Assembly (NCBI GenBank): GCA_011364925.1
Contig: RDOA01000001.1
Coordinates: 29,997-93,996 of the forward strand
DNA length: 64,000 nt
Source of the DNA: Promethearchaeota archaeon
GTDB taxonomy: Archaea > Asgardarchaeota > Lokiarchaeia > Sigyniarchaeales > SOKP01
Direction: 5' to 3'
Position 1 is the stretch's first letter. Each line of letters starts with the position of its first letter. Below are positions 32,355 to 53,025 of the stretch, in pieces. Made by a program: the position numbers and the translations under genes. The notes beneath the pieces are model-generated. The model was not told the origin of the DNA. It did no database searches and saw only the letters and a program-made list of their open reading frames with translations.

Positions 32355-34331
32355 TTGAAAGTTTTAAATACATTATATCAGACTGTCTTTGGATTAAATT
32401 ACGGAAAAGCATTAATTGAAGCAATTATACTTGTTATTGTTTTATATTTAATTTTAAACTTCATTAATAATCAAATTCCTGAGGATCAACAACTTTTAAA
32501 GAAAGTATTTAAGAGAAGGTCAGCAATAATTTGTTTTGCCATATTATTACCGATTATCATTGGCGTTAAATCTATCTTTGAAACCTTATGGGTTTTTAAT
32601 TCCACATTTTTGGCGTTCAATAATAATGCTGTCTCGTTCGCAATTATAACTACTCTCTTTTACTTCTTCTCCAAAATACTACTATTAAACGATAAGAGAA
32701 TTAGAGCTTCAAGGGAGGTGCATTTAAAGAACCCATTTATCAAAATATTTAAGATATTTATTGTAATAACTTGGATAATTGCCATAATATTTATTTCAAT
32801 TCCTCTCTTAGGACTTGAAAGGCTTGAAGGGGAACATCCGGTATTAGTGGATATATTTTACCTTGGATTTATATGGGCGGGTTTTACTGTCGGATGTAAT
32901 ACACTTCTCACAATTCTAATTAATAGAATTATTCCAATTAAGTACCGGATTCCTAAGAGACCTTTAAAATATTCCATGTTTGCTGGTGGACTAATCTCAT
33001 TTGGAATTTGGTCAATCCAATTAATTATCGTTGAATTATATTTGAAAAGATTATTTGGAATAACGATCTATAATCAAGACATTAGGATATTAATTTTTGT
33101 TGTTAGCCAACTTTATGGCATCATATTTTACATATCGTGGGATAAGAGATTCATGCCAAAAGCTAAAGAAAGAAGTACTTTAAAACTCCAGAGAGCGTTA
33201 GAATTGGTTGAAGAACAATCCTTAGAAAGTTCTAAATTAACTGGCAATCAGATTATTCTTGATGTAAAAGACCTCACTACGTATTTTTATACAGAAGAGG
33301 GTGTAGTGCGTGCAGTAGAAGATGTTTCTTTTAAAATATATGAAGGTGAAGTTCTTGGTCTTGTAGGCGAAACCGGTTGTGGAAAATCTGTTACCGCATT
33401 ATCGATCGTTCAACTAATTCGTCCTCCAGGAAAAAGAATAAAAGGGAATATCATTTTTAGCGGAGAAGATTTATCTTTAAAATCTGAATCAGAAATGTTG
33501 AAATATCGTGGAAAAGACATTACAATGATTTTTCAAGACCCGCTTAATTCGCTCAATCCAGTTTTTAAAGTAGGTAAACAAATTTCTGAAGTATTTTTAC
33601 TACATATGGAAAACGAAATGCTGGTCGAGACTTCTAAATTTCCTAATAAGAGTTTATATAGCGTTGCTCAGGAATGGAGTATCGCTCTTTTAAAAGATTT
33701 AAATATCCCCTTCCCTGGAATAATTTTTGATAGATATCCCCACGAACTAAGCGGTGGGATGCGACAAAGAGTTCAGATTGCAATGGCATTGGCATGTAGA
33801 CCTAAATTACTAATCGCAGATGAACCGACTACCGCTTTAGATGTTACAATCCAAAATCAAATTCTTAAACTGATGAAAGAACTTCGCAAGAAATACAACA
33901 CTAGTATTTTATATATCACCCACGATTTAGGTCTTATCTCTAAAATGTGTAATCGTGTTGCTGTTATGTACAGTGGATCAATTGTCGAATATGGAGATAT
34001 AAAAAGATTATTAACTAATCCCTATCACCCATATACCCGAGGACTTATTGCTTCTGTTCCAGTAATTGAAAAACAAAAACCAAGGCTAGAAGTTATACCG
34101 GGAACGGTCCCAAATTTAATTTATCCGCCATCGGGATGTAGATTTCATCCTAGATGCAAATATTGTTTCGAACCATGTGATTCAGTAGTTCCAAAACAAA
34201 ATGAGGTTGATAAAGATTATTTTGTAGCGTGTCATCTCTATAATCCAGAATATAAACGTTTAGCAGAAATTTCTATAAAGAATGTAGAAGAACCAAACAC
34301 ATATGCAAATAAAAATGAGGTTATGTCGTAA
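32355..34331 (+). CDS. Oligopeptide ABC ATPase (DppD-like) with N-terminal membrane module, Opp1
   Basis: A 658-residue fusion. Residues 1 to about 270 form a membrane module with six to seven hydrophobic helices, followed by a charged linker. From about residue 300 comes a complete DppD-type ATPase: Walker A GETGCGKS (near 337), signature LSGGMRQR (near 464), Walker B LLIADEP (near 485) and the C-terminal oligo_HPY region with FHPRCKYCFEPC, a Cys-rich motif that can carry an iron-sulfur cluster. DppD proteins are normally soluble and about 320-340 residues, so the membrane fusion is unusual. Start codon is TTG with AAAGAGGG just upstream. Paralogue at 50083. Confidence 0.93.
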   Translation: MKVLNTLYQTVFGLNYGKALIEAIILVIVLYLILNFINNQIPEDQQLLKKVFKRRSAIICFAILLPIIIGVKSIFETLWVFNSTFLAFNNNAVSFAIITTLFYFFSKILLLNDKRIRASREVHLKNPFIKIFKIFIVITWIIAIIFISIPLLGLERLEGEHPVLVDIFYLGFIWAGFTVGCNTLLTILINRIIPIKYRIPKRPLKYSMFAGGLISFGIWSIQLIIVELYLKRLFGITIYNQDIRILIFVVSQLYGIIFYISWDKRFMPKAKERSTLKLQRALELVEEQSLESSKLTGNQIILDVKDLTTYFYTEEGVVRAVEDVSFKIYEGEVLGLVGETGCGKSVTALSIVQLIRPPGKRIKGNIIFSGEDLSLKSESEMLKYRGKDITMIFQDPLNSLNPVFKVGKQISEVFLLHMENEMLVETSKFPNKSLYSVAQEWSIALLKDLNIPFPGIIFDRYPHELSGGMRQRVQIAMALACRPKLLIADEPTTALDVTIQNQILKLMKELRKKYNTSILYITHDLGLISKMCNRVAVMYSGSIVEYGDIKRLLTNPYHPYTRGLIASVPVIEKQKPRLEVIPGTVPNLIYPPSGCRFHPRCKYCFEPCDSVVPKQNEVDKDYFVACHLYNPEYKRLAEISIKNVEEPNTYANKNEVMS

Positions 34332-34386
34332 TTATGTCTTTCTTAATTAAAATTGTCAATTATTTCAATAAAGTGGGGGAGAAACT

Positions 34387-35685
34387 ATGATTTTTCAACT
34401 GGAAATTATAACATTATTAGTCGCAAAATACATATTTTTTTTTCCTGTAGCTTTTATTATTTCAATCTTTATTATTAGTTGGGATCCACGATCCCAATTA
34501 GTGAGATTAAGGTTCCGTTTATACCTAATATCAGCGTTTAATAGTAATCTTTTTATTTTTATCCCTTTAGGAACAAGTTTCTTAGGAAACATTTGGATGT
34601 ATATAATTATCTACGTATTAATAGCAGCGATTGTTAGTTTTGTTGTTAAACTTATTACGTATAAAATAGTTGGAATTGAAAAATTTGGTCAAATTAAAAC
34701 TCTTGAAAGAAGCAAGAATTTGCTTGAAGTTAAAAATCTTAAGGTGCATTATCCACTTGTAGGGGGAATTTTAAAAAGAAAAATAGGAGCAGTTAAAGCA
34801 GTTGATGGTGTGTCGTTTGATGTAGAGTTTGGGGAAACTCTTGGATTAGTAGGAGAGAGTGGGTGTGGAAAAACAACCATAGCAAAAGCTATATTAGGTT
34901 TACTTGAAAAAACCGAAGGAGAAATAATTTTTCAAGAAAAGGTAATTCCTCGCAAGTTTTCACCTTATTTAAGACAAAAGATTCAAATGATTTTCCAAGA
35001 CCCTGACGCCTCCCTGAATCCCCGTAAAAAAGTTGTTGATATTATAGCCGATCCTCTGAAAAATTTACTTGGTATAACTAATGAAATAGAAATCAGAAAA
35101 AGGGTTTTAGAGTTGTTAGACCAAGTATCGTTAAAGCGAGAACATCTGGATCGTTATCCTCACGAGTTTTCAGGCGGACAAAAGCAAAGAATTGTCATAG
35201 CTAGAGCATTAGCATGCAATCCGGGGTTGATAATTTTAGACGAACCTACTTCTGCTCTTGACGTATCAGTACAAGCGCAAATTCTTAACCTACTTAAAGA
35301 TTTACAGATTGAATATGGCTATGGATTTTTGTTTATTACCCATAATTTAGCTGTGGTCTCCCATGTAGCAGATCGCGTAGCTGTTATGTATCTTGGTAAA
35401 TTTGTGGAAGTTGGAAGTAAAAATCAAATCTTTTCGAATCCAACTCATCCTTACACTAAAGCTCTCCTCGCTTCGCGCAGTACAATCGATCCTTACAACC
35501 AAGAAATCAAATTTGTTATAAAAGGTGAAGTTCCAAGCCCTATTGCTCCACCACCAGGATGCACTTATAATCCACGCTGTGTTTCTGAATTTCGTACAAA
35601 AGATTGTGAATTAAACCTTCCTCATAAGATTAAAATCGACGAAGGTCACTTTATATGGTGTAATAATCCACCAACCTCTAAGTAG
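34387..35685 (+). CDS. Oligopeptide ABC ATPase (DppF-like) with N-terminal membrane segment, Opp1
   Basis: The 432-residue protein has about 110 extra N-terminal residues with three to four hydrophobic helices and a conserved DPRSQLVRLRF loop, then a DppF-type ATPase. Walker A is GESGCGKTT (near 155), signature FSGGQKQR (near 261), Walker B LIILDEP (near 281), and the end has the YNPRC...C oligo_HPY motif. It is the second ATPase of the Opp1 transporter, and it too is tied to the membrane. It starts 55 bases after the DppD-like gene. Its paralogue is 48751-50055, which shares the DxRSQLVR loop. Confidence 0.93.
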   Translation: MIFQLEIITLLVAKYIFFFPVAFIISIFIISWDPRSQLVRLRFRLYLISAFNSNLFIFIPLGTSFLGNIWMYIIIYVLIAAIVSFVVKLITYKIVGIEKFGQIKTLERSKNLLEVKNLKVHYPLVGGILKRKIGAVKAVDGVSFDVEFGETLGLVGESGCGKTTIAKAILGLLEKTEGEIIFQEKVIPRKFSPYLRQKIQMIFQDPDASLNPRKKVVDIIADPLKNLLGITNEIEIRKRVLELLDQVSLKREHLDRYPHEFSGGQKQRIVIARALACNPGLIILDEPTSALDVSVQAQILNLLKDLQIEYGYGFLFITHNLAVVSHVADRVAVMYLGKFVEVGSKNQIFSNPTHPYTKALLASRSTIDPYNQEIKFVIKGEVPSPIAPPPGCTYNPRCVSEFRTKDCELNLPHKIKIDEGHFIWCNNPPTSK

Positions 35686-35798
35686 TTAGGAAAATCAATT
35701 GTTAAAAGAGGATTGGTATTAATTATAAGAACAGAGTTTTTAATTGAAAATAACAATCTATAATAAAGTATAAATATTTTATTAGCGATATATATAAA

Positions 35799-35819
35799 TA
35801 AATTTACTGTGTAAATTTA
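35799..35819. promoter_or_regulatory. Perfect palindromic operator-like site before GRE2
   Basis: TAAATTTAC-TGT-GTAAATTTA: perfect 9-base arms around a 3-base centre, 27 bases upstream of the GRE2 ATG. It lies directly after a TATA-like TATATATAA at about 35789-35797, so it would cover the transcription start. The left half AAATAAATTTAC is shared with the promoters of substrate-binding protein 1 and the activase. A repressor site is the simplest reading. Confidence 0.65.
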
Positions 35820-35846
35820 ATTAATAACATACAAAATTGTTGAATT

Positions 35847-38294
35847 ATGGTTGTTCAAGATTTGAAAATGACTCCTCTTCAAGGAATCCCTTCAGAGCGA
35901 GTTAGAAAGATTAGAGATAGAATGCTCTCTATGCCAAGAGAACTTGATCTTGAGCGTGCTCGGTGTTATACGAGAATATACAAACAAATGGAAGATGCTC
36001 CGCCCTGCATGAAAAATGTGAAAGCATTAGAGGAATTTTTACGGTGTCTTCCAATCAGAATTGATGAAGACGAGCTTCTTGTAGGCGTAAAATCTAGTAA
36101 AATCAGAGCTGATCCAATTGAAATAGAACGTGGAATGCGGTCTAAACTTTTAGGTCTAGTCGTGAGCGAATCTATAAATAAACAAGTAAAAGATATGATT
36201 ATTTCAAAAATCTCATTTATTAATCGGTATGTTCCTTTAACAGAAGAAGAACAAGATGAGTTGAGGAATGAGATTCTACCCTTCTGGAAGGGAAGAACTG
36301 TCGCAGATCGAAAGGAAGAAGCCTATAAAGAGGCAGGTTTATATATGCAACAGAAGGGACCTTTGCCCTCAATGCTCCTCGTTAGTTTTGGGAGCGGTAC
36401 TGATATGTTTGCTGGTGCTATGGGTCAAGGACATGTCGTTCCAGGCTATAGACGAGTACTCAAAATGGGCTTTAGAGGTATCGAAAAGATGGCGAAAGAA
36501 GGGCTTGCAAAACTTAAGGAATCGGACGAAAAATTTGACCAACGCAAGGACTTTTATGAATCAGTCATAGTAGCTGCAAACGCCGTCTGTGATTATTCCA
36601 ATCGATACGCTGATCTCGCAATGGAAATGGCAAAAACTGCTTCAGAAACAAGAAAGGCAGAGCTTTTAGATATAGCAGAAAGAATTCGAAGAGTGCCGGC
36701 TTATCCTCCAAGGAGCTTTATGGAAGCACTTCAATCAGTTTGGATGACCAATGTCGTTATGGAAATGAGTTATGGTGAAGGAAACATATTCTCTCAAGGA
36801 CGCGTAGACCAATATCTTTATCCATTTTACGAAGCTGATTTGGCAGAGGGTCGGATTACTTACGAGGAAGCTGTAGAAGCAATTGAGGAATATTTAGTTA
36901 AACTTTCTTCTGTCGTTATAGCTGGACAGAACAATATAACTATCGGAGGATTAGATCATGATGGAAGTGATGCCACGAATGATGTTTCCTATATGTTTCT
37001 TGAAGCTATTTCAAATGTAAAAAGCTTATTAAACACATTATCGATAAGAATTTCTTCCAAGAGTCCCCGTGATTTTTTGAAAAGAACTCTTGAAGCTTTT
37101 AAATATACAGCCGGAATGGGAATTCATAACGATGAGGTGTTAGTGCCACAACTTCACGATACGGGATATTCGTTAGAAGATGCCCGAGATTATTCAATCG
37201 TCGGTTGTGTAGAACCACATGGTACGGGGAACGACTTCTCTTATACTGCAGGTAATGCCGTCCAGATTTCAATTCTTCTTAATATGGCATTAAATGAAGG
37301 GCGTACGATTCTTTCAGGAAAAGAAACCATGGGAGCAAAAACACCCCCAGCCAGTACTTTTAAAACTTTTGAAGATGTGAAGAACGCGTTTGTAGACCAA
37401 CTTAAATTTGCTATAGACCTAACTGTAAGAAAGGCTGAGATAAAAGATAAAACATTTGCTAAGTACTTACCTTCTCCGTTGCTTTCTTCTTCAATAGAAG
37501 GATGTCTCGAAAGCGGAATGGACGCAACTCGAAACGGTGCTAAATATAATAATAACCCAATGGGCTCACAAGGGCTTGGTACTGTGGTAGATTCATTAGC
37601 AGCAATACGTTGGGCAGTATTTGAAGAGAAATTAGTAACCATGGAAGAATTGGTTAACCATATGAATAATAATTTCAAGGGAGCCGAAGAACTTCGCGAA
37701 AAATTACGAAATAAATCACCCAAATATGGAAATGGTGATGAAAGAACCGATGAACTAGGGAGATGGGTAGCAAGTACTTTATGCGATATCACAAGAAAAT
37801 ATAAAGCGAGAGGCGGTGATGGCATATATCATAATTGCCTTGTATCTTCTGGAACTCAGGTTATAGAGGGTAAATCATTAGGTGCAACTGCAGATGGAAG
37901 ATTGAAAGGTGAACCCGTAGCGAACGGTATCTCTCCTTCAAATGGCACTGAAAAGAATGGTCTTACCATGACACTCAAATCCGTAGCTTATGCGACAGCT
38001 GATCCTCATCTAACAAACGGAGCATCATTTAATATTAGACTTAATCCGAGTATACTACAAACTGACGAAGGACTCGATCAATTTACTTCTATAGTAGAAG
38101 CGTATTTAGATTTAGGCGGTCGAGAGCTTCAAATAAATCCAATAAGCTCAGAAACCCTTAGAGACGCGCAAGCTCATCCCGAAAATTATCCCGACTTATC
38201 CGTTAAAGTGACAGGTTACTCTGCCAGATTTATAGATCTAACAAAAGAGCTTCAGGACGATATTATAGCAAGAACAGTATTCAACGAATTATAA
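35847..38294 (+). CDS. Glycyl radical enzyme, diol-dehydratase/choline-lyase-like (GRE2)
   Basis: The 815-residue protein carries the catalytic Cys454 in SIVGCVEPHG and the glycyl radical motif VTGYSARF with Gly790. The GCVEP loop is that of glycerol/propanediol dehydratases, choline lyase CutC and related C-O, C-N or C-S lyases, many of which release an aldehyde. The next genes are its activase, an AOR and an alcohol dehydrogenase, which supports an aldehyde product. The exact substrate is not readable from sequence; a structural model of the pocket would be needed to decide. An operator-like palindrome lies just upstream of the start. No microcompartment shell gene is visible nearby. Confidence 0.9.
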   Translation: MVVQDLKMTPLQGIPSERVRKIRDRMLSMPRELDLERARCYTRIYKQMEDAPPCMKNVKALEEFLRCLPIRIDEDELLVGVKSSKIRADPIEIERGMRSKLLGLVVSESINKQVKDMIISKISFINRYVPLTEEEQDELRNEILPFWKGRTVADRKEEAYKEAGLYMQQKGPLPSMLLVSFGSGTDMFAGAMGQGHVVPGYRRVLKMGFRGIEKMAKEGLAKLKESDEKFDQRKDFYESVIVAANAVCDYSNRYADLAMEMAKTASETRKAELLDIAERIRRVPAYPPRSFMEALQSVWMTNVVMEMSYGEGNIFSQGRVDQYLYPFYEADLAEGRITYEEAVEAIEEYLVKLSSVVIAGQNNITIGGLDHDGSDATNDVSYMFLEAISNVKSLLNTLSIRISSKSPRDFLKRTLEAFKYTAGMGIHNDEVLVPQLHDTGYSLEDARDYSIVGCVEPHGTGNDFSYTAGNAVQISILLNMALNEGRTILSGKETMGAKTPPASTFKTFEDVKNAFVDQLKFAIDLTVRKAEIKDKTFAKYLPSPLLSSSIEGCLESGMDATRNGAKYNNNPMGSQGLGTVVDSLAAIRWAVFEEKLVTMEELVNHMNNNFKGAEELREKLRNKSPKYGNGDERTDELGRWVASTLCDITRKYKARGGDGIYHNCLVSSGTQVIEGKSLGATADGRLKGEPVANGISPSNGTEKNGLTMTLKSVAYATADPHLTNGASFNIRLNPSILQTDEGLDQFTSIVEAYLDLGGRELQINPISSETLRDAQAHPENYPDLSVKVTGYSARFIDLTKELQDDIIARTVFNEL

Positions 38295-38427
38295 ATTCTT
38301 ATTTATCATTCTTTTTATTTTTTAAATTTGATTTTTCTTTCTAGCTTCAATTTTTAAAATTAGTAGAGATTAAGATATTTTTATATAAAAATTAAGAAAA
38401 ACAGAATTTGATTATTGTTCTCTGAAC

Positions 38428-39330
38428 TTATCGAGTTAAACCTGACCACTTAACATTAGTAACGCCTGTTCCTTTAGCAATTTCAACAAAATGTTCCATC
38501 TCCTCCTTTGTCATTAATGGCTCATCTTTTAAAGACCATGACATATCTAATTGTGTATATTTAATATCACAGAGTTTATTAAAGCTCAATAAATCCCATT
38601 TATCCGGGATATTATCTAATTCATTTACAATGAATTCTCCGATTCCTTGAACATTCTCTTCCGTGGCAGTATAGTTTGGAATTAACGGTGTCCTTATCCA
38701 CATAATTTTCTTATTTTCCTGGATATATTTGGACATCCATATAGCATTTTCCAAGATTGCTTTATTTGAAACGCCTGTGAATTGTTTGTGCTTTTCAGGA
38801 TCAATCTCTTTAATATCTAACAACACGATATCAAGGTAGGGTAATAATTCTTGATAGACTTTTTTACTTGAAATTCCGCACGTATCTAAAGCCGTAGTAA
38901 TACCATTTTCCTTGCATAATTTCAAGATTTTCAAGAGAAAATCCGGTTGTAAAGTAGGTTCACCACCAGAAACGGTGATGCCTCCTTTTGCTTTATCAAA
39001 AAATATCTTTTCTTTTTCTATTTCGTGAAAAAGCTCTTTTACATCCCACCATTTTCCATACATGCTTAATGCCGTACTAGGACAAGCTTCCACGCAATCT
39101 CCACAACTAGTACATCGTTCTCTATTAATGTGTAATCCGTCATCTTCAAAAGTCAAGACGTCCTCTTGACAAGCATCTATACAACTATCACATTTAATAC
39201 ATTTACGTTCTGTCCAATAAAGTTGAGGTTTTTTTGGAATTGATTCGGGATTGTGACACCAGACGCAATTTAACAGACAATTATTAAAAAAAATTGTTGT
39301 ACGCACGCCAGGGCCATCGTCAGTGGCCAT
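38428..39330 (-). CDS. Glycyl-radical-enzyme activating protein (radical SAM), conserved N-terminus probably extends upstream
   Basis: The radical SAM activase has the CxxxCxxC cluster motif CLLNCVWC in its N-terminal third, two complete ferredoxin motifs (CIKCDSCIDAC and CTSCGDCVEAC) and the SAM-binding GGITVSGGEP. It installs the glycyl radical on GRE2 and possibly GRE1. The usual activase N-terminus (a strand before DDGPG) is not covered from ATG 39330; in-frame upstream codons encode TRGLIFKIER, a good match, but no ATG, GTG or TTG opens that frame. An ATG at 39391 would fit if one base in the GTGGTTT run (about 39376-39382) were extra. Convergent with GRE2; the two genes are 133 bases apart. 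Confidence 0.9.
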   Translation of the reverse strand: MATDDGPGVRTTIFFNNCLLNCVWCHNPESIPKKPQLYWTERKCIKCDSCIDACQEDVLTFEDDGLHINRERCTSCGDCVEACPSTALSMYGKWWDVKELFHEIEKEKIFFDKAKGGITVSGGEPTLQPDFLLKILKLCKENGITTALDTCGISSKKVYQELLPYLDIVLLDIKEIDPEKHKQFTGVSNKAILENAIWMSKYIQENKKIMWIRTPLIPNYTATEENVQGIGEFIVNELDNIPDKWDLLSFNKLCDIKYTQLDMSWSLKDEPLMTKEEMEHFVEIAKGTGVTNVKWSGLTR

Positions 39331-39453
39331 TCTTTCTATTTTGAAGATTAATCCTCGAGTTGTTGCTTCTATCTTAAACCACTTTATCCATCTTGAATTT
39401 ATTTTAAAATGAAAATAAACTTAATTATTAAAATTAAGAAATTTTTAAAAAGA

Positions 39454-39480
39454 TTGTTAATAGCTATCGTAAATTTATTT
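39454..39480 (-). promoter_or_regulatory. Operator-like site upstream of the activase
   Basis: On the minus strand it begins AAATAAATTTAC, identical to the half-site of the GRE2 and substrate-binding protein 1 operators. It continues GAT then AGCTATTAACAA, which matches the AGCTATTAAAAA end of the site before the alcohol dehydrogenase. It thus links the two types of motif. Its distance to the proposed start at 39391 (about 60 bases) is like that at the other promoters. Confidence 0.5.
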
Positions 39481-39502
39481 TTATTTCGAACAATAATTTA
39501 AT

Positions 39503-41386
39503 CTAAGATATTATTTCTAATTCTTTCAATTTTTCCTCAGTTGGTCTTCCAGTTTCCCAATCCCATCCGCGAATATTATAATATTTCTTCAAATTATCTT
39601 CTAAATCGAGTTTTACATTTTTTAATCTTCCTGATGATAATACTTTCATATTGTGATTGGGTAATCTATCGTCTTTCCTTGAAATTCCTAAATTGCAGCT
39701 AATTAACCGTTTCAAATTATTTATTCGTTCTCCAACCTTCATCAGCGATTTTCGATCGTAATTAAAACCTGTAGCAGCGTTTATATAGCCAAGAATATGT
39801 TCGAATTTGGGGGTTGCAAAATTGCAATTTACTGCCGAATCATCAATAGCCCTAAGGTCTTGAAGATTTACTACACCTTTTTCTCTTCCTGAGGCATCAA
39901 ATCTGTCTTTACTTCTTTTAATGTGGAGAATTCTATCGTTAATTGTTCCTGCTTCCGCTGAATACCAATCGCATTTGTTATGGTTTGCTCCAACGCATCC
40001 AGTCATATAACTTAATGCTTGACCGGCAAACGCTCTAGGTTCATGCATAGGGATTTCTAAACCTTTTACGTGTGCTGCTAATTCAGGATCAACTTCAAAT
40101 TTCAAAGCCATAGCTCTCACGCCTTCTGCAAGAACATCACCGATACCTTCTCGCTGGCTTATTTTTTCAATAAGTTTGCAGACTAGTTCTCCATTTCCCC
40201 ACTTAATATCTTCTACAGGGATTTCGTCCAAAAATTCCTTTATTCTGTTGATTCCTAAACTATTTTCTACTAAATAAGTTAGAAACGCAATTGAGACTCC
40301 ACAAGAAATAGTATCGACGCCAAATTTATTACAAAGATGATTTGCGAGAACTACTGGTTTTGAATCAAAAACTCCACATAAACTACCTAATGCAGCAACA
40401 GATTCATATTCTGGTCCATCGCTTTCAATTTCAATTTCCCCTGTGTTAATGACAGTTGATTTACCGCACTTTATCGTACAACCTGCGCACCCGTAACTGA
40501 ACATGGGATATTCTTCTCTCAGAGTTTTTCCTGTTAAATTCTCGGCAATAAACTCCGTTTCTGTAAAGTAATACCCAGGAGTATCACCATTAACCATCCC
40601 TAGATCGAGATACATATTAGTACCATATAAATTAAAAAGTAGGGATCCTACTTCTCCCATCGGGTTTGCTTCCCTTTCAAGTTGTGCTTGTTTTCTTAAT
40701 GTTTTCCCTAGTTCGTTATCTGCGAGATCAATCTTTTCTTTTCCATGGACTACTAAAGCTTTTAGATTCTTCGAACCCATAAGAGCTCCTAACCCACACC
40801 TACCAACTACTCTCCCTTCATCGTTCAATATAACGCTATATTTAACGAGGTTTTCTCCCCCTGGACCAATACAAGCTATCCGAGTGTTTGGAGCATTTAA
40901 TTCATCTTTAATTAGTTTTTGAGTTTCGTAGCAATCTTTACCCTGAAGTTCTGAAGCATCTTTAAACTCTATTTTTCCATCATGGATATATAAATAACTT
41001 AATTTGTTTAATTTTCCGAAGAGAACAACAGCATCAAATCCACTATTTCTTAAAGCAATGCAAAACAAACCTCCCGAAGAACCTTCACCCCAGATACCCG
41101 TTAAAGGTGATATTCCGCTCACAGTATAACGACCCGAATTGGGGCGAATAGTGCCTGTAATTGGACCAGTAGCAAATATTAAAGGATTAATTTCTGAGTA
41201 AGGATTTCCTCTTAATTTATTGTAATCTTCTTCTGAAAGTAGATCGTACGTTAATTTAGCGCTTAATCCCGTTCCTCCTAAATATTTTTGCGCAGTTTCA
41301 GGACTTAAATCTTTCACTTCAGAAGTTTCTCTGCTTAAATCCACATAAAGGACTTTTCCATTATAACCGTATAATTTATCATTCAT
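39503..41386 (-). CDS. Aldehyde:ferredoxin oxidoreductase (AOR family)
   Basis: The 627-residue protein is an AOR-family tungsten or molybdenum pterin enzyme that oxidises aldehydes to acids with ferredoxin. The N-terminal GYNGKVLYVDLS and YLGGTGLSAKL are typical; the cluster motif CAGCTIKC is near residue 297, the fourth ligand is probably the Cys in SAVNCNFA, and pterin-binding segments include GALMGSKNLKALVV and EYESVAALGSLCG. Start ATG 41386 lies 23 bases after the stop of the alcohol dehydrogenase gene, so the two are co-transcribed. Cytoplasmic. The pairing points to an aldehyde that is both oxidised and reduced. Confidence 0.94.
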   Translation of the reverse strand: MNDKLYGYNGKVLYVDLSRETSEVKDLSPETAQKYLGGTGLSAKLTYDLLSEEDYNKLRGNPYSEINPLIFATGPITGTIRPNSGRYTVSGISPLTGIWGEGSSGGLFCIALRNSGFDAVVLFGKLNKLSYLYIHDGKIEFKDASELQGKDCYETQKLIKDELNAPNTRIACIGPGGENLVKYSVILNDEGRVVGRCGLGALMGSKNLKALVVHGKEKIDLADNELGKTLRKQAQLEREANPMGEVGSLLFNLYGTNMYLDLGMVNGDTPGYYFTETEFIAENLTGKTLREEYPMFSYGCAGCTIKCGKSTVINTGEIEIESDGPEYESVAALGSLCGVFDSKPVVLANHLCNKFGVDTISCGVSIAFLTYLVENSLGINRIKEFLDEIPVEDIKWGNGELVCKLIEKISQREGIGDVLAEGVRAMALKFEVDPELAAHVKGLEIPMHEPRAFAGQALSYMTGCVGANHNKCDWYSAEAGTINDRILHIKRSKDRFDASGREKGVVNLQDLRAIDDSAVNCNFATPKFEHILGYINAATGFNYDRKSLMKVGERINNLKRLISCNLGISRKDDRLPNHNMKVLSSGRLKNVKLDLEDNLKKYYNIRGWDWETGRPTEEKLKELEIIS

Positions 41387-41409
41387 TTTTTTAAATCACT
41401 CCAAATATC

Positions 41410-43741: not shown

Positions 43742-44773
43742 ATGTTTGGAGGAAGAAAACCACAGTACCGATTTAAAACTTATAAATCCGATGCAGCACC
43801 CTTTTTCTTCTTTATCGATATCTTTCCGCTTGATCTTAACCTTTTTGATACTCCTCACTCATTAGCGTTAGCTAAGCATATTAAAAACAATCCAATAATG
43901 CCTTTACCAATGAGAATTGATCGCGTTTACAACGGAGTAAGTTCGATCCTTATTCGACCTAATTCTCCAGTATCATTTCCCTTGAACGAATCGATTGTAG
44001 CTTTAGTTAATCCGGTTCCCTTTCTCCAATTGGGAATTGAGAATTTGCTTTTTTTTACAGAAATTCGATCTCAACAACGATTGTTACGCTCCGTTAGGAA
44101 AGAAAAAGTTAAGGAATGGTGGGAAAATACACGACACCTTTATGGCAATCTACACCAGGTCGAAGAAGATTTTGCTGCTTTTCTAAAAGCATATTTATAT
44201 ACTATAGTTAATGCAAAAATCAATGAAGAGGATATTACAGGTGCTGCTTTAGAATATTGTGAAATTGTTAATAATATTTGTAAACAGAGAATGCTTAAAA
44301 ATAAGATTTTAGTGGAGATCAAAAATGCTCAAAAGCATGTAAAACTATATCGAGAAAAAACAGCCAAAAGGAGAGAAAAGCTAACTATAGTCAAAAAACT
44401 CGAATATCACCCAGATCTCATCGATATTGAAGTATTTAATTTTTCAGATACTGGTTTTCCAAAGCAGATGGATTTTAAAAATTCTAATTTGAAAAACTAT
44501 GGAAGTATTGTAGCGAAGTATATTCCATTGCTATTATATGATGATTTACAGGAATGTATGCTACAAAATATGAAATTACTTGAAACGAATGAAATTTCGT
44601 TATTAAATCCATCATTTCTTTTGGAAAATAATGTTATTATTCTTTTAAGCTCAGAAAAAGCAGAAGATAGTGATTTGAACAAATATATATGGTTATCGGA
44701 TTTAAATGAAGTAGATATTGAAGGAATTTTAAATTCCATAACTCAATCTTTAATCTCTATAAGTAATATCTAG
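43742..44773 (+). CDS. Hypothetical protein, 343 residues, no recognised family
   Basis: I do not recognise this gene. The start ATG 43742 follows a TATA-like TTTATATAATAAA by about 15 bases, so the message is probably nearly leaderless. The N-terminal part is rich in Phe and Pro and may be a small beta domain (residues 1-100); residues 110-230 are strongly helical and charged; the remainder mixes helix and strand. There are no membrane helices, signal peptide or Cys motifs. It follows TetR1 on the same strand after about 80 bases, but has its own promoter. Confidence 0.6.
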   Translation: MFGGRKPQYRFKTYKSDAAPFFFFIDIFPLDLNLFDTPHSLALAKHIKNNPIMPLPMRIDRVYNGVSSILIRPNSPVSFPLNESIVALVNPVPFLQLGIENLLFFTEIRSQQRLLRSVRKEKVKEWWENTRHLYGNLHQVEEDFAAFLKAYLYTIVNAKINEEDITGAALEYCEIVNNICKQRMLKNKILVEIKNAQKHVKLYREKTAKRREKLTIVKKLEYHPDLIDIEVFNFSDTGFPKQMDFKNSNLKNYGSIVAKYIPLLLYDDLQECMLQNMKLLETNEISLLNPSFLLENNVIILLSSEKAEDSDLNKYIWLSDLNEVDIEGILNSITQSLISISNI

Positions 44774-45021: not shown

Positions 45022-47154
45022 ATGAGAAAATTTACAAAAATATTAGTCATGATACTTCTCTTTAGTTCTTTTGTTATCTCATTTATTCCAGTCATAGCAG
45101 AACCTAAACCCGCACAAGCTGATCCATTAATTTTTAGGTTTGGAGTTCAATCAACTGCCGGAGATTGGGATCCAGCAATTCGGTATGCTGCTCCAGCTGA
45201 TGTGGCCCGATTCCCTACCCTCGAGGGCTTTGTAACATATCCTGCTTATTGGAATGGCGATGTCAATTCATTAATACCATGTCTTGCAACCGATTGGGTT
45301 TTCGAATATTGGCCAGTAGAACAAAATTCAAAAGGATATTATAATAGCGGAGGTATAAAGTCGACTACTTTAACATTGCGAGAAAATGTAACCTTCCATG
45401 ATGGTTCTCAATGGAACGCTACAGTAGCAAAATGGAATCTGGATCGAATAATGATTGTTTCTGGTAATTTGACAGGAAGGGGTAATACTAAATATCTAGC
45501 TGATTTTTGGGAAGATGCAAGCGATTACTTACCTTTTTATACTCAAAGTTGGAACTTTTCATCTGCTATTGGCCAGATGCCTTCCTATAATGGCATGACT
45601 GCAACGATTCCTGCATTAAACGGTACTTTTCCTAAAATCAATAATGTAACTATCTTAGACGCGGGAGGACCGAATGGAGGGGGCATAATTAAAATCAATT
45701 ATAATGATTGGGCTTCTTTTTCAGTTTGGGAGATTTTAGCAGGTAATCCTCAACATTATGTATTGATGATATCGATGGCGGCTTATGCGGATTATTGGGA
45801 TAGAGCAATTTATGGTTTTGGAGAAGTTCCTGGCTTTCCTCAGGACGCTACCTTCAAACACTTGGTTGGAACGGGGCCTTATATATTTGATCATTGGACG
45901 ACCACAGGACCGACAACGGGAGGCTTAATAGTAAAAAACGAGAATTATTGGAATAAAACAGCCCTTGAAGCTGCTGGTTGGTTCGGGATTGATGAAGTAC
46001 AATTTGTGTTATTTACTCCCGACGATGCTGGTACACAAGCACGTAATTTGGCAATGAAGACTGGAGCTATAGACTTTTCTTCCGATGTCAGTGGTTTTAA
46101 TTTTGTTTACGATGAAGTTATTTCTCAAGCTGACTTAACATATTTTACCAACCCGATTGGAGATTATCCATTCTGTCTTATATTGAATTGCATCAATGAG
46201 ACCGCCTGGAAGACGCTTTACGACGGTGGAATGTTTCCATATAAGACCAATGGACTCCCGCGCTTATTCCGGAAAGCAATATCATACGCATTCGACTATG
46301 AAGCATTTTTACAGACAGCTTATAATGGACGTGCGACGCGTATGAATAGTTATCTTGGTAACGATAATCTCTATGCTAATCCAAGCATTCCTATGCCATA
46401 CTTAAATCTTTCCATCGCACGAGAGGCTATACTTGCTCAATATCCAACTGAATGCGCTGCTAGAGGTCTTGATGCAAATAGTCCCGATCAAGATTGGATA
46501 AATGTTGCAAACTCAAATCCTATTTACAGGGTTAGTTTCTATTGGGATATATCTTCGGTTCAGCAGGTTTTAAAAGATTATATAGAAACTGCTCTTAAAA
46601 GTATTGGGATGGCTTATTATGACGATGCTGATCATCAAGCGACACCTACTATATGGGCAAAAATATTTCAACCAGGAATCATGTTTTCTGCACAAATGTG
46701 GGGATCGACTTGGGCTATAGCACCAAATGATATCGGTCACGCACACATTAACGCGTACTTCAAGTATCCAGGCCCAGGTACGGTATATTATAACTTAGCC
46801 TTCTGTTATCTCAATAATGTCACAGACTGGATAGACCAAATTTATTTTTCAAACAGTACTACACGACAAGAATACTACGATGATATAGGCGTCACTCTAC
46901 AAGAATACGAGTACCCATGGATGTGGATAGGTCATGGTCAATTTGGTTATGTCTATAGGAGAGAATGGGAAGTGCGCGAGTTTGAGCGCTATTTTGGTAT
47001 GCCAACAATTGTTGGAGATCTTACCCATATAAAGTGGGTTGGATGGGAGCCACCCATACCTGGAATACCCGGATATTCGATGTATATCACCTTGTCTGTT
47101 TCAGCAGCTGCAACTGTCGGAATTATTTATGTAATGATGAAAAAAAGAAAGTAA
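45022..47154 (+). CDS. ABC transporter substrate-binding protein, family 5, C-terminally anchored, copy 2
   Basis: The 710-residue paralogue of 27150-29456: signal peptide MRKFTKILVMILLFSSF with cleavage near residue 26, TLRENVTFHDGSQWNATVAKWNLDR-type lobe I sequences, GTGPYIFDHW, and a C-terminal PGIPGYSMYIT sequence before one hydrophobic helix and a MMKKRK tail. It would be exposed on the cell surface and feed the Opp2 permeases (48751-55703, leftward). The nested inverted repeat in its promoter suggests tight control. It has no permease gene on its own strand. Convergent with the M24-fold gene; about 140 AT-rich bases, including a long T-run, lie between the two stops. Confidence 0.92.
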   Translation: MRKFTKILVMILLFSSFVISFIPVIAEPKPAQADPLIFRFGVQSTAGDWDPAIRYAAPADVARFPTLEGFVTYPAYWNGDVNSLIPCLATDWVFEYWPVEQNSKGYYNSGGIKSTTLTLRENVTFHDGSQWNATVAKWNLDRIMIVSGNLTGRGNTKYLADFWEDASDYLPFYTQSWNFSSAIGQMPSYNGMTATIPALNGTFPKINNVTILDAGGPNGGGIIKINYNDWASFSVWEILAGNPQHYVLMISMAAYADYWDRAIYGFGEVPGFPQDATFKHLVGTGPYIFDHWTTTGPTTGGLIVKNENYWNKTALEAAGWFGIDEVQFVLFTPDDAGTQARNLAMKTGAIDFSSDVSGFNFVYDEVISQADLTYFTNPIGDYPFCLILNCINETAWKTLYDGGMFPYKTNGLPRLFRKAISYAFDYEAFLQTAYNGRATRMNSYLGNDNLYANPSIPMPYLNLSIAREAILAQYPTECAARGLDANSPDQDWINVANSNPIYRVSFYWDISSVQQVLKDYIETALKSIGMAYYDDADHQATPTIWAKIFQPGIMFSAQMWGSTWAIAPNDIGHAHINAYFKYPGPGTVYYNLAFCYLNNVTDWIDQIYFSNSTTRQEYYDDIGVTLQEYEYPWMWIGHGQFGYVYRREWEVREFERYFGMPTIVGDLTHIKWVGWEPPIPGIPGYSMYITLSVSAAATVGIIYVMMKKRK

Positions 47155-47296: not shown

Positions 47297-48550
47297 CTAA
47301 ATGGGAACTATACGTATTTCATTGACAGGATATTTATTAAAATTTTCATAACCATTGTGTGTAAAGACACCTGAGGAACCTACCCAAAGAGCTTTTTTTG
47401 TATTAGGAATCCTAACCCATATATGTAAAGTAACCGTGTTACCCGGTTTAAACTCAAAATTTTGATACAATTGTGCCCATGCTGCGCTATTAGTACCGGG
47501 TGTTGCCCCTGCTACCGGTGGTTGCATCATAAAACACCAACCAGCAATTAATATACTTGGTACTTGCTCAAGACCAGCGTCATAAATTGGCTTAAGAAAC
47601 TGATCTATATCTTTTCCTTTCATTCCAGGCTTTAGTTCAGAAACCATATTATCATGAACCATAGCTGCAACATTGAACATTTTTTCATATTCAGGTGTTG
47701 GATTACCAACAAACCAAGTTCCCCAGAGCTTTCCCCAATAATTACCGTATCCTAAACAAAATTCGGACATTAGAAAATCACCTACTTTCACTCGTTTTCC
47801 TGTTGAATAAGGCGTAGGATAAAAGTAATCAGGATTTTCCATTGAAAAGGAACTGACATGACCGAACGGAAATGTTCCATAATGGCGAACTGCTGTCAAA
47901 TTCATTGCTCGTTGTAAGTCTTTGTGTTTTATTCCGGGACGGGTTAATTGAAAAACCTCTTCTTGAGCCAGATCCGTTAAAGCTCCTGCCCTTCTAAGGA
48001 GCGCTATTTCTTCTTCGCTTTTAATAAGTTGTAGATCCTGCAACCAAGGATTAGCGCTGACAATTTTTGCATCCGGAAAGTTTTTATCTATAAGCTGACG
48101 TTGTTCAGTGAATAAGGTGATATCACCATATTGAGCTCCTCCAGGACCAACAAGTCCAATCGTTCCTTTTTCGTATCCAAGATCTTTGATTTTTTGAATT
48201 GCATTTGATAATGGTTCTCCATCTTTTATATCTTTCACGTAGGAAATGGTAGCCGCGTTTACGCAATGATAATCTAAATTAATAAACATTGTAGGTTCGC
48301 CTTCTACTGGAACAGTAAGATATGTTTCAAAAACATTTGCGAAACGGGTAAGATACTGGAGGTGTATCTGACCAGGACTATTTCCTATCCCCACATGCCC
48401 ATAAACTAAAAGTACATCTATTCCTCTTTCCTTCATCTCCTTTCGAACATATTTGTAGCGTTGAGCCATTTCTTTATCTGAAAAATATGGAAGAAAGTTA
48501 TTATCAGCGTCTTCAGGTATTACATCATAAATTTCTTTACTCATTTTCAT
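47297..48550 (-). CDS. M24 peptidase-fold (pita-bread) protein, probable non-metallo variant
   Basis: A 417-residue protein with a creatinase-type N-terminal domain (about 20-170) and a pita-bread C-terminal domain (180-410), the layout of Xaa-Pro peptidases and creatinase. The metal ligands are not conserved: the first Asp position reads SEFCLGYG, the second Asp falls at GKLWGT, the His region is AGWCFMMQPP, and the final Glu positions read LHIWVRI and VFTHNG. It is therefore unlikely to be a dinuclear aminopeptidase; it may be a creatinase-like hydrolase or a binding protein. ATG 48550 or 48544 may be the start. Located beside the Opp2 operon, whose regulation it probably shares. Confidence 0.8.
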   Translation of the reverse strand: MKMSKEIYDVIPEDADNNFLPYFSDKEMAQRYKYVRKEMKERGIDVLLVYGHVGIGNSPGQIHLQYLTRFANVFETYLTVPVEGEPTMFINLDYHCVNAATISYVKDIKDGEPLSNAIQKIKDLGYEKGTIGLVGPGGAQYGDITLFTEQRQLIDKNFPDAKIVSANPWLQDLQLIKSEEEIALLRRAGALTDLAQEEVFQLTRPGIKHKDLQRAMNLTAVRHYGTFPFGHVSSFSMENPDYFYPTPYSTGKRVKVGDFLMSEFCLGYGNYWGKLWGTWFVGNPTPEYEKMFNVAAMVHDNMVSELKPGMKGKDIDQFLKPIYDAGLEQVPSILIAGWCFMMQPPVAGATPGTNSAAWAQLYQNFEFKPGNTVTLHIWVRIPNTKKALWVGSSGVFTHNGYENFNKYPVNEIRIVPI

Positions 48551-48601
48551 CTCTCTAATTAATTTTATTACTATAAAATTCTAACCACAAATGAGAATTT
48601 T

Positions 48602-48630
48602 TTTTAATATACAGTATGCATTAAACATAT
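48602..48630 (-). promoter_or_regulatory. Operator-like site before the M24-fold gene
   Basis: Read on the minus strand it matches the site before substrate-binding protein 2 at 25 of 29 positions, with the common core TTTAATNCATACTGT. It follows a TATA-like TTATAAATA and ends about 50 bases before the M24 start codon, the same arrangement as at 44953. Confidence 0.65.
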
Positions 48631-48750
48631 TTATAACTTTTCATAATTTAAAGCGTTTCAATCAAAGTTCTTCAAATACAGTTAAAACTCAGATACTCTC
48701 TCTTTATTCCACAAATAATTGACTTACTTAAACGCTTTTTACAAAAGAAA

Positions 48751-50055
48751 TCACTGTTTTGGGGGATTTACACACCAAATATAATGATCCTCCTCAATTT
48801 TTATCTTATGAGGCAAATCAAATTCACATTCCTTAGTTCGCACATCTGAGGAGCAGCGAGGGTGAAAAGTACATCCCGTAGGTGGGGTTATAGGGCTTGG
48901 AACTTCACCGCGAATAATAAACTTTATATCCCTATTTTTCATGTCTACTTCGGATCTCGACGCTAATAGCGCTCGGGTGTAAGGATGCGTGGGTTTCGAA
49001 AAAATTTGTTCGGTATCCCCAATTTCAACGATCTGACCGAGATACATAACTGCGATTCGATCAGCAATATGATTTACTGCAGCTAAATTGTGTGTAATAA
49101 ATAAATACCCATAACCGTAATTTTTCTGTAATCTTTTTAATAAGTTTAGGATTTGTGCTTGTACTGATACATCAAGGGCAGATGTTGGTTCGTCAAGAAT
49201 TATAAGTTCTGGATTGGTTGCGAGTGCTCGAGCAATAACAATTCTTTGCTTTTGGCCACCTGAAAATTCATGTGGATAGCGATCCATATGTTCTCGCTTC
49301 AAGGCAACCTCTTTCATTAATCCTAAAACTCTTTTTCTTAGTTCATCTTTTTTAGTGATGCCTAACAAGTTTTTCAGAGGTTCAGCAATAATCTCAAATA
49401 CTTTTAAGCGAGGATTTAAAGAAGCATCTGGATCCTGATAAACAATTTGAATTTTCTGTCTTAAATTAGATGGATATTTACGATGAATTGCCCTGTCTTG
49501 GAATCGAATATTTCCATCAGTTTTCTTTACTAAACCTAAAATCGAAAGAGCTACCGTTGTTTTCCCACAACCGCTTTCTCCGACTAATCCAAGGGTTTGA
49601 CCTGAATTAATTTCAAAAGATATACCATTAACAGCTTTAATGACCCCTATTTGTCTTCTAAACATTCCTCCAATGAGAGGATAAAAAACTTTCAAATCCT
49701 TAACATCTAATAGATTCTTCCCTCTTTCAAGAGTTTTCATTTGACCAAATTTATCAACTCTAAGAACATTAAATCTAATATATCTAACAGCAAAACTCGT
49801 AATAATTCGTATTAGAAGATAAATTAGCCAAAAATTAGTTAAGAAAATTTCTGGTAGAGGAAAGAAGATAAAAAGAATACCTGAAATTGATGAAATAAAA
49901 TATAAATGAACTTTTACCCTAACTAATTGGGATCTAGCATCCGATTTAATGATAAAAAACGAAAGAAAAAATCCTATCCAAAAAAGAAGTAAAAAAACAA
50001 TTATAAATACGTTTAAATCAAAGATGTTAAAGATATAATTATATTGAAAAATCAT
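48751..50055 (-). CDS. Oligopeptide ABC ATPase (DppF-like) with N-terminal membrane segment, Opp2
   Basis: The 434-residue counterpart of the Opp1 DppF-like protein. About 110 N-terminal residues form hydrophobic helices with the conserved DARSQLVRVK loop. The ATPase has Walker A GESGCGKTT, signature FSGGQKQR, Walker B LIILDEP and a C-terminal FHPRC-type oligo_HPY motif. It is the last gene of the leftward Opp2 operon and follows the 980-residue ATPase by 27 bases. A T-rich, non-coding stretch separates it from the M24-fold gene promoter. Confidence 0.93.
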   Translation of the reverse strand: MIFQYNYIFNIFDLNVFIIVFLLLFWIGFFLSFFIIKSDARSQLVRVKVHLYFISSISGILFIFFPLPEIFLTNFWLIYLLIRIITSFAVRYIRFNVLRVDKFGQMKTLERGKNLLDVKDLKVFYPLIGGMFRRQIGVIKAVNGISFEINSGQTLGLVGESGCGKTTVALSILGLVKKTDGNIRFQDRAIHRKYPSNLRQKIQIVYQDPDASLNPRLKVFEIIAEPLKNLLGITKKDELRKRVLGLMKEVALKREHMDRYPHEFSGGQKQRIVIARALATNPELIILDEPTSALDVSVQAQILNLLKRLQKNYGYGYLFITHNLAAVNHIADRIAVMYLGQIVEIGDTEQIFSKPTHPYTRALLASRSEVDMKNRDIKFIIRGEVPSPITPPTGCTFHPRCSSDVRTKECEFDLPHKIKIEEDHYIWCVNPPKQ

Positions 50056-50082
50056 ACTCGTTCACTCTATTCTATTTCTTTT

Positions 50083-53025
50083 TTAATTCTTCTTATTAAA
50101 CGGTACCTCGTCTTTATATTGAGGATCATAAAGATGGCAAGCCACGAAATACTCTGGTTCAACTTCTATGCTTTTCGGTATTATAGAATTACATGGTTTA
50201 AAGCGATATTGACAACGAGGGTGAAATCGACATCCTGAGGGGGGATATATTAGATTTGGCACGAGTCCAGGGATAACTTCAAGTTCCTCTTTCTTTTTTC
50301 CTATAACAGGTATCGACGCAATAAGACCCTTTGTATACGGATGAGATGGGCTCTCGAAGATTCTATAAACATCTCCATATTCAACTATAAACCCACTATA
50401 CATAACTGCGACTCTATCACACATTTTTGATATGATTCCAAGATCATGCGTGATAAAAAGAATTGAGGTATTGTATTTTTGCTTAAGATTCTTCATTAAT
50501 TGAAGAATTTGATTCTGGATTGTTACATCCAATGCGGTTGTAGGCTCATCTGCGATTAATAATTTAGGACTACACGCAAGCGCCATAGCAACTTGAATTC
50601 TTTGGCGCATCCCCCCACTTAATTCGTGGGGATATAGGTTATAAACGCGTCCTGGGGCGGGAATGTTAAGGTCTCTTAGTAATTGCTCACTCAACTCTCG
50701 AGCAATACTGTATATACTTTCGTCGGGATGTTTCATTGCTTCGACGAGAAGTTCATTTTCCATGTGTAGGAGAAATACTTCCGAGATCTGTCTACCTACT
50801 TTAAAAACTGGATTTAGAGAATTAAGAGGGTCTTGAAATATCATCGTGATCTTGTTTCCGCGATAACTTAATATTTCCTTTTCAGATTTTTGGAGTAAAT
50901 TTTCACCTTCAAATATCACTCTTCCACTCTCAATTTTCCCGGGAGGTCGAACGACCTGAAGTATAGATAAAGCAGTAACTGATTTCCCACAACCTGTTTC
51001 TCCTACAAGGCCAAGAGTTTCCCCTTCATAAATTTTAAAAGAAACTCCTTCTACTGCGCGTACAACTCCTTCTTCACTGTAGAAATAAGTCGTTAGACCA
51101 TTCACATCCAAGATAACTTTTCTTTCTTCAATCTTTATAGGTTGAACTTGAGTTTCCGCCACTGAAGTTAATATTTTTTGGCTTTTTCTCATTTCTTCCT
51201 TGAAGTATTCTGGACGGAACTTAACTCTTAAAGAAACGGCAAAAGAAATGAGAAATATAAATATATCGATAATAAGATGCACACGTATGTCCTGAACATT
51301 AAAATGATAATTTGGTAAAATTCTTAGAAAGACACTTGACAAGATTTCAATAATAATTATACCTACGAAAAATGTGATAATTTCAACACTGAACACGAAA
51401 TTTAAGGAGCGTCTAAACTTTTTATTATAAAGCTTCATAACGATAACTGACCCAATAACGATGTCTATAGCTAGAATAAGAAGATCGTTTAGAAGATTAT
51501 TACCAAAGTTATAGACGAACAATAATTTAAGTGGTAAATTTATAATCAACCATAATGAATTAATAACAACTGCCTTTCTAAGAGAAGCGTCAAAATCTCT
51601 TTTACTTGAAAGCCATTTCGTAATATATACTCCTAATAGAAAAGTCGTAATCAAAAAAACTATTATAGAGAAAAAATCAGAACTGATGGTTTTGTAGATA
51701 CCTGTAAAAAAATAATAATAAATAAAGAAGAGCGGAACTACCCAGACCCAAAGTAGAACTATTCCACCAAAGTAACTGGAATCTCTAAGAAATTTTTTAG
51801 AGATCTGGTTCTCGCTAGGGATAAGTCTGTTAAAAATGAAATTAATGGAAATGTCGATAAGAATCATAAAAAAAGCAAACTGAACACTAAGAGTAAATAT
51901 ATCAAAAACAGGACTTAAGTTAGGTAATAATTGTAATAAATTAATGAATACAATGACCAAAACGACGATCCACAGAAGTCCTACGATGATATACTTGTAT
52001 ATCTTTCTGTTTCTTCTTGTCGGATGAGCGTTTTCGTCTAAAAAACGAAATTTTCTAAGTTTTTTCAATATAAAGAAGTAAATATTATTAGAAACACTTT
52101 CTGCAAGATAAACAATATTTTCTTGCTCGTTATAACTAACATCAAGATCTTGAGCGCCTACTACAGAATCCTTTTCTTTAAATTGCTGAATTTGTAACGA
52201 TTTGTCGTTCTCTTTCATTACCGCTTCTAGAATCTTTTTCTTACTTCTTATAGCTGCTTCTGGTAAAAATTTAGTTCGTAATAGATTGAAATAACTCACA
52301 ATAAATACACCCAAGATAATTACAATTATCACACGAAGGTCTTGTTTTATAATAGTTAATCCGAAGAGGCGAGATAAATACATTTCAAAAATTATAAATT
52401 GAACGAACCAGATCCCAAACGAGATGATTCCACTTGCGATCAATGAATTTCTAAGTTCAATGTTTGGAATTTGTTTCTCAATAGGTTTAGCTTTGTTAAT
52501 TAAATAGGTTAGTACTATAAGAAGAAGGACGGTTAAAAAAGCCGTGAAAACCCCAATATATAACATATCGTAATTCGCATACTTTATATCCCATACCAAG
52601 TGAAGTCCTAATATCTCAAACGAGAGAAATACTGCTGCTATACTCCAAACTACACCATCTATTATTAAGAATTTTTTTTTGTGTCTTTTAAATAATAGAT
52701 CGCCATCTTTGGAAGAAAATGATTTGTTAAATATTCTAAAAAAGGCTTTGTATAGGGGAAAATATATGGTTATTACTATTGCAAAAAAGAGATAATAGTT
52801 ATTCAAATATCCAATTATCGGATAATAATATTCTATACTTTCAATAACAGCTCCGATGCCGTATATAGTGCCAAAGACTATTATTAAGCTTAAAACTAAG
52901 CTTTTTGTATTTGTTAGTATCCTTTTATCCTTTGGGAGTAGTTTATTTATTAAACTAATAATCAAGCTTAATATTAACAAAATGACAACATCTTCAACCA
53001 GAAGAAATCGATAATTAAAAGCCAT
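50083..53025 (-). CDS. Oligopeptide ABC ATPase (DppD-like) with two N-terminal membrane modules, Opp2
   Basis: A 980-residue fusion, about three times normal DppD length. Residues 1 to about 290 form a membrane module clearly related to that of the Opp1 ATPase (shared GIISFGIW and QDLR segments and RTKFLPEA end). Residues about 340-620 form a second module with the same end pattern (QDIRVH..., RVKFRPEYF). The ATPase follows from about 635: Walker A GETGCGKS, signature LSGGMRQR, Walker B LLIADEP and FHPRCQYRFKPC. About a dozen or more hydrophobic helices are visible. This looks like tandem duplication of the membrane module. Function of the modules is unknown. Confidence 0.92.
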   Translation of the reverse strand: MAFNYRFLLVEDVVILLILSLIISLINKLLPKDKRILTNTKSLVLSLIIVFGTIYGIGAVIESIEYYYPIIGYLNNYYLFFAIVITIYFPLYKAFFRIFNKSFSSKDGDLLFKRHKKKFLIIDGVVWSIAAVFLSFEILGLHLVWDIKYANYDMLYIGVFTAFLTVLLLIVLTYLINKAKPIEKQIPNIELRNSLIASGIISFGIWFVQFIIFEMYLSRLFGLTIIKQDLRVIIVIILGVFIVSYFNLLRTKFLPEAAIRSKKKILEAVMKENDKSLQIQQFKEKDSVVGAQDLDVSYNEQENIVYLAESVSNNIYFFILKKLRKFRFLDENAHPTRRNRKIYKYIIVGLLWIVVLVIVFINLLQLLPNLSPVFDIFTLSVQFAFFMILIDISINFIFNRLIPSENQISKKFLRDSSYFGGIVLLWVWVVPLFFIYYYFFTGIYKTISSDFFSIIVFLITTFLLGVYITKWLSSKRDFDASLRKAVVINSLWLIINLPLKLLFVYNFGNNLLNDLLILAIDIVIGSVIVMKLYNKKFRRSLNFVFSVEIITFFVGIIIIEILSSVFLRILPNYHFNVQDIRVHLIIDIFIFLISFAVSLRVKFRPEYFKEEMRKSQKILTSVAETQVQPIKIEERKVILDVNGLTTYFYSEEGVVRAVEGVSFKIYEGETLGLVGETGCGKSVTALSILQVVRPPGKIESGRVIFEGENLLQKSEKEILSYRGNKITMIFQDPLNSLNPVFKVGRQISEVFLLHMENELLVEAMKHPDESIYSIARELSEQLLRDLNIPAPGRVYNLYPHELSGGMRQRIQVAMALACSPKLLIADEPTTALDVTIQNQILQLMKNLKQKYNTSILFITHDLGIISKMCDRVAVMYSGFIVEYGDVYRIFESPSHPYTKGLIASIPVIGKKKEELEVIPGLVPNLIYPPSGCRFHPRCQYRFKPCNSIIPKSIEVEPEYFVACHLYDPQYKDEVPFNKKN

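Follow-up and report, generated by a model that had tools for sequence, protein, structure and literature searches.

Why should the ATPases of a peptide importer carry membrane helices of their own? ABC importers are commonly seen as modular systems with separate permeases and docked soluble ATPases. According to an earlier note on the DNA analyzed here (a stretch of 64,000 nucleotides from a member of the Lokiarchaeia (Asgard), called the window below), all four DppD/DppF-like ATPases encoded in it begin with hydrophobic segments. Open reading frames and hydropathy profiles confirmed such segments in 4/4 proteins, and none of the four is a soluble ATPase of the kind usual in the Dpp/Opp architecture; the third Opp D/F pair of the same genome is an ordinary soluble one (L057). 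A lineage with both ATPases integral in the membrane would break the soluble-ATPase rule for ABC importers, and the fused proteins would offer a natural test of what the free exchange of ATPases is for.

The window contains two complete Dpp/Opp peptide-importer loci. Each encodes a pair of BPD_transp_1 permeases and a substrate-binding protein of family 5. Locus 1 lies on the plus strand and encodes, in this order, a small multi-TM protein (29684..30223), a DppB-type permease (30266..31336; PF00528, E 1.5e-31), a DppC-type permease (31349..32344; PF00528 and PF12911), the DppD/OppD-type ATPase D1 (32355..34331; 658 aa) and the DppF/OppF-type ATPase F1 (34387..35685; 432 aa). Its binding protein is encoded upstream on the opposite strand (27150..29456, minus strand; PF00496, E 2e-20). 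Locus 2 has the same gene order on the minus strand, with a small multi-TM protein (55179..55565), DppB (54068..55138; PF00528 and PF19300), DppC (53059..54054, assigned by position and similarity), D2 (50083..53025; 980 aa) and F2 (48751..50055; 434 aa). F2 adjoins an M24-type peptidase-like gene (47297-48550), beyond which lies the gene for a binding protein (45022..47154, plus strand; PF00496, E 9e-25; Loki-CTERM, NF033507). Based on the transporter family and on the M24-type peptidase-like gene that adjoins F2, we infer that the predicted cargo is peptides. A plasmid search gave no match.

The ABC_tran (PF00005) and oligo_HPY (PF08352) families are found above cut-off in 4/4 ATPases and cover only the C-terminal part of each protein, namely residues 301-628 in D1 (33255..34238, plus strand) and residues 638-965 in D2 (50131..51114, minus strand). 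Walker A, Q-loop, signature, the Walker B glutamate and the H-loop are intact in all four; for instance, D1 has GETGCGKS as Walker A, LSGGMRQR, DEPT and an H-loop. As judged from these motifs, the four proteins are catalytically intact ATPases of the DppD/DppF type. The OppD/DppF subfamily and equivalog models of NCBIfam score at best 330-365 bits, below their curated cut-offs of 408-575, so that this assignment holds at the family level only. In fold searches, the ATPases of E. coli OppBCDF and DppBCDF (PDB 8z1v, 8z21) rank first, with E values up to 1e-18 and 43% identity, and the E. coli systems also share the oligo_HPY region, a four-cysteine cluster, the B and C permeases and a family 5 binding protein. 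The cysteines of D1 (595/601/608/626) and D2 (932/938/945/963) have the 6/7/18 spacing of E. coli DppD, where Cys284/290/297/315 hold a [4Fe-4S] cluster (PMC12136057), whereas the four cysteines of F1 and F2 are spaced 6/9/18 compared to 6/7/17 in E. coli DppF. The E. coli D and F chains differ in having only about 325 residues and no TM module, while here both chains carry N-terminal TM modules. Automatic annotation, which reports an OppD/DppF match to the C-terminal part only, hides between a third and two thirds of the D proteins. D1 is read from a TTG start codon, and its relative in L049 begins near D1 residue 11, which makes the true start of D1 uncertain.

The modules ahead of the ATPase domains were told apart as three profile families: (i) D-type, about 285 residues with 7 TM helices, (ii) F-type, about 110-120 residues with 3 TM helices, which forms a profile family apart from the D-type, and (iii) type II, about 130 residues with 4 TM helices. 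These helix counts are hydropathy-based, with 7, 2, 3 and 15 Kyte-Doolittle peaks preceding the ATPase domain in D1, F1, F2 and D2, respectively; the third helix of F1 gives a weaker peak, consistent with a 3-helix module. The single module ascribed earlier to the 658-residue protein proved to be a 7-helix D-type module at D1 residues 7-297 (32373..33245, plus strand; E 1e-110 to a profile that includes D1). The F-type modules occupy residues 1-117 of F1 (34387..34737, plus strand) and residues 1-120 of F2 (49696..50055, minus strand), and the latter is 45% identical to the former. The 980-residue protein had been described as carrying two modules that both end in a 'QD[LI]RV...KF-x-P-E' motif. 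D2 does have 7+8 N-terminal helices, the first seven of which form a full D-type module at residues 1-284 (52174..53025, minus strand; E 7e-106 to a profile that includes D2) that is 31% identical to the N-terminal module of D1 over 278 residues (BLAST E 5e-47). The motif does occur twice in D2, at residues 228-257 and 578-607, and D1 has the version QDIRI...RFMPK. However, the second half of D2 is neither an equal copy of the first nor a plain tandem duplication. It is a composite of a partial D-type copy at residues 311-468 (51622..52095, minus strand; iE 5e-15), a type II 4-helix module at residues 447-572 (51310..51687, minus strand; iE 1e-31, and E 1.4e-30 in a second search) and, at its end, a helix that resembles the last one of the D-type module; the second motif (QDIRV...KFRPE; 51205..51294, minus strand) leads into the ATPase domain. 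The partial second D-type copy is also present in L181 and L178.

It had been left open earlier whether the modules belong to a common ATPase family already described with such N-termini, and none was found. Pfam, searched to E<=10, contains no family above cut-off for any module, the listed NCBIfam families have no match to the ATPase N-termini, and a PDB sequence search with the D1 module had no match. The structure-database comparison suggested earlier produced PDB fold matches in which the ATPase domain ranked first, and no credible module match. A description of such membrane-module ATPases was not found in the open-access literature either, and importer ATPases of this design are apparently previously undescribed. 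Sub-threshold matches to Fumarate_red_D, 7TMR-DISM and DUF2070 were dismissed as module identities. Within the D-type module, TM1-2 resemble TM5-6 (hhalign 95.8% for the first versus the second half, compared to 97% for DppB versus DppC as a control). This internal repeat is the only one of the tested module likenesses that we accept, since the idea that all three module types share one 3-helix unit was rejected (D versus F or type II below 3%, F versus type II 56%). A SWEET/PQ-loop-like 3+1+3 fold is compatible in topology (7 TM, N-out, TM1-2 similar to TM5-6) and was set aside, having neither sequence nor structure support.

The distribution of positive charges orients the modules in the membrane. 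In the D1 family, the mean number of K+R per loop alternates as 0.6/4.1/0.3/5.9/0.5/4.7/1.4, and the same alternation is seen in the D2 and F chains, so that D-, D2- and F-type chains are predicted to be N-out/C-in with a cytosolic ATPase domain. By the same charge statistics, the type II module would be N-out/C-out. It follows from the sequences themselves that both ATPases are permanently anchored in the membrane. Among 18 sequences, 15 module positions are invariant, and most of the invariant polar ones (D166, E227, Y229, Q241, D242 and R244 in D1) are found where TM5-7 end on the extracytoplasmic side. Conservation within the module is highest in TM6 and the outer loop between TM6 and TM7, with 3.3-3.5 bits compared to 2.0-3.1 elsewhere. 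Such high conservation points to the extracytoplasmic ends of TM5-7 as a probable contact surface. AlphaFold models of D1 and D2 are both weak (mean pLDDT 61 and 54, respectively). That of D1, in which the module mostly reaches 65-88, has seven long helices, from H2-40 to H243-294, and the poorer one of D2 serves for helix positions only.

In the D1 model, the last helix runs unbroken through residues 243-294 from the membrane to the ATPase domain. Together with the conserved TM6 and TM6-TM7 outer loop, this continuous helix would fit a membrane sensor, in which a ligand, a lipid or the loaded binding protein, bound at the outer face, signals via the last helix to ATP hydrolysis. We consider such a sensor unlikely, as no known sensor domain scores above the Pfam cut-off, the F modules are short and belong to a different family, and a size range of 3-17 helices would be unusual for an allosteric sensor.

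The distribution of the modules was analyzed in 228 genomes of the phylum, with scoring of the 10-19 best candidates in each. The D-type module was found in at least 22, the F-type module in at least 24 and a type II match in at least 46 of the 228 genomes. A contig scan with one peptide pattern placed the named module relatives in Asgard archaea only, namely in Lokiarchaeota/Lokiarchaeia and one Candidatus Hodarchaeum. Over all loci read, the distinct D-F pairs comprise 32 fused/fused pairs, 23 soluble/soluble pairs and no true mixed pair; the two apparent mixed pairs (L058 and L137) have a D gene truncated by the contig end. Separate D and F trees were built, because the long paralogue branch of a joint D+F tree made it unsuitable for rooting, and they place the fused D proteins on one side of a branch with support 98/89 and the fused F proteins likewise with 99/96. 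Relatives with fused pairs keep soluble D/F pairs as well. Two soluble proteins in this set are unusually long, an OppD of 821 aa (L045:7503-9965) and an OppF of 535 aa (L059:8002-9606), both with Walker A near the N-terminus and the extra length after it.

These data leave practically no room for an artefact, in which a misassembly, a missed stop or a frameshift would have joined separate genes. The frames are continuous in dozens of genomes, and many assemblies show the fused architecture independently, one of them a 4.36-Mb genome in a single contig (L048). The earlier argument against a chance fusion or an assembly error is strengthened by the 32 distinct D-F operons. On this comparative sequence evidence, it is near certain that the fused-ATPase architecture is real and conserved in Lokiarchaeia.

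The same comparison revealed that module size changes in whole blocks beside the same ATPase. D modules have 3 (L173), 7 or 13-17 helices at different loci, and F modules have 3 or 7-8 helices, with the N-terminal half of the long forms being a type II block and with two such blocks in a 678-aa protein (L141). This high variability, along with the promiscuity of the type II block, which is found fused to unrelated membrane proteins, would suit a constructive neutral accretion, in which modules gained by fusion are tolerated and hard to lose and serve no distinct function. Nevertheless, neutral accretion would hardly be expected to keep the 15 invariant module positions, the strict co-occurrence of D and F as fused proteins and the retention of the modules across Lokiarchaeia and a Hodarchaeum, and we regard this explanation as quite improbable.

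For the role of the modules, we favor an accessory domain specific to the lineage that anchors the ATPases beside DppB and DppC and serves as a platform for docking or assembly, a proposal that in our judgement has about an even chance of being correct. The core complex would be the usual B-C-D-F heterotetramer supplied by the family 5 binding protein. In E. coli, DppD is bound by DppB and DppF by DppC (PMC12136057). If this pairing is kept here, D, with 7 extra helices at locus 1 and 15 at locus 2, would adjoin DppB, and F, with 3 extra helices at each locus, would adjoin DppC. The predicted complexes have 22 or 30 helices compared to 12 in the E. coli type. The extra helices may pack at the outer edge of DppB/DppC, outside the peptide path, and the modules would tether each ATPase to the membrane and keep it together with its own permease. 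Their lateral and extracytoplasmic surface could then serve for docking or assembly; candidate partners are the anchored binding protein, the small membrane protein whose gene precedes dppB, or some further protein in the membrane. The conserved extracytoplasmic ends of TM5-7, taken as a contact surface, argue for this accessory role, as do the changes of module size in whole blocks and the recurrence of type II on other permeases; docking is the part that we infer. The soluble Opp systems without modules in the same genomes are a point against it.

Of the functions first offered for the extra helices, the one with the least support is an added transport path. Up to 15-17 helices would suffice for a transporter fold, and the internal repeat of the D-type module is a trait common in transporters, so that a second transport or channel path, making a fused double transporter, could be imagined. 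However, the standard permeases already supply a path, a minimal 3-helix D form exists (L173), module length is tolerated in blocks, the F modules have 3 helices only, and no likeness to a known transporter was found in Pfam, PDB sequence or fold searches. A second path is therefore very unlikely.

The proposed anchoring and docking role would resemble that of the TMD0 domains of TAP and TAPL. The N-terminal extensions of TAP1 and TAP2 are autonomous hubs that recruit tapasin and are dispensable for transport (PMC3437018). Like TMD0 of TAP1/TAP2, TAPL and ABCC, the modules described here are extra N-terminal helix bundles, carried by the two halves of an ABC transporter for peptides; unlike them, they join an importer NBD directly, whereas TMD0 precedes the core TMD-NBD half transporter of eukaryotic export systems. 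In searches of Pfam with all modules and of the PDB with the D1 module, no sequence similarity to TMD0 was found. If the docking role is correct, the archaeal group that is closest to eukaryotes would provide, in these modules, a prokaryotic parallel to the TMD0 hubs. In ABC half-exporters, too, a single chain has membrane helices ahead of its NBD, but the proteins studied here have an Opp-type NBD, separate DppB/DppC and no PF00664-type 6-TM core. Among importers, the M. tuberculosis OppABCD and DppABCD systems are known variants with altered ATPase architecture; they have two NBDs per chain, and a membrane module added to the ATPase is not described for them (PMC12136057).

The suggestion that the module might also exist as a stand-alone protein held for one block and failed for another: free relatives were found for the 4-helix module of D2 and the long F proteins, and none for the main D module. 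The free type II proteins have 138-145 aa and four helices (L123-L129, L138), and many begin with M[IL]FQ. Their genes occur in varied neighbourhoods among unrelated genes, and since many are not located beside ABC genes, the block may be a membrane module of general use, not one specific to ABC systems. Type II also forms the N-terminus of GlnP/HisM-type permeases in complete amino-acid ABC operons (L130, L136), with further fusions of this kind in L131, L132, L134 and L135, and the C-terminus of a BPD_transp_2 permease (L133). No curated family matched the block. From its stand-alone copies and permease fusions, type II can be read as an exchangeable accessory piece. A broader view, which we consider possible but doubtful, is that Lokiarchaeia use exchangeable 3-, 4- and 7-helix modules, both free and on several ABC importer families, as a coupling system common to the lineage, by which nutrient importers are positioned or assembled in the membrane. 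In such a system, the module would be on the ATPase in peptide importers and on the permease in amino-acid and BPD_transp_2-type importers.

Additional proteins accompany both loci. The small multi-TM proteins encoded directly upstream of dppB belong to one phmmer family, which is conserved in 29 entries from fused and soluble Lokiarchaeia Opp operons alike. The family has no NCBIfam match, and the locus 1 copy has no Pfam match either; it may be an additional subunit of peptide importers in Asgard archaea. In one fused operon, the DppB-type permease (L055:5334-6839) has 502 aa and extra N-terminal helices, which indicates that the permease of a fused system can be extended too. The locus 2 binding protein (45022-47154) ends C-terminally in a Loki-CTERM sorting signal and a TM anchor, unlike the binding proteins of the soluble operons L057 and L059, which appear to be N-terminally anchored. 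Adjoining it is a gene for a 343-aa soluble protein (43742-44773, plus strand) without an NCBIfam match. Opp loci of both kinds, fused (L039, L055) as well as soluble (L057, L045), encode similar-looking proteins, which share an opening of the 'FFF-x-D...P-x-P-x-R-x-D-K/R-V' type. Beside locus 1, the region 35847-42705 of the window contains genes for a glycyl radical enzyme and its activating enzyme, as well as aldehyde ferredoxin oxidoreductase-like and iron-dependent alcohol dehydrogenase genes; at the corresponding place in L091, there are three consecutive copies of a glycyl radical enzyme.
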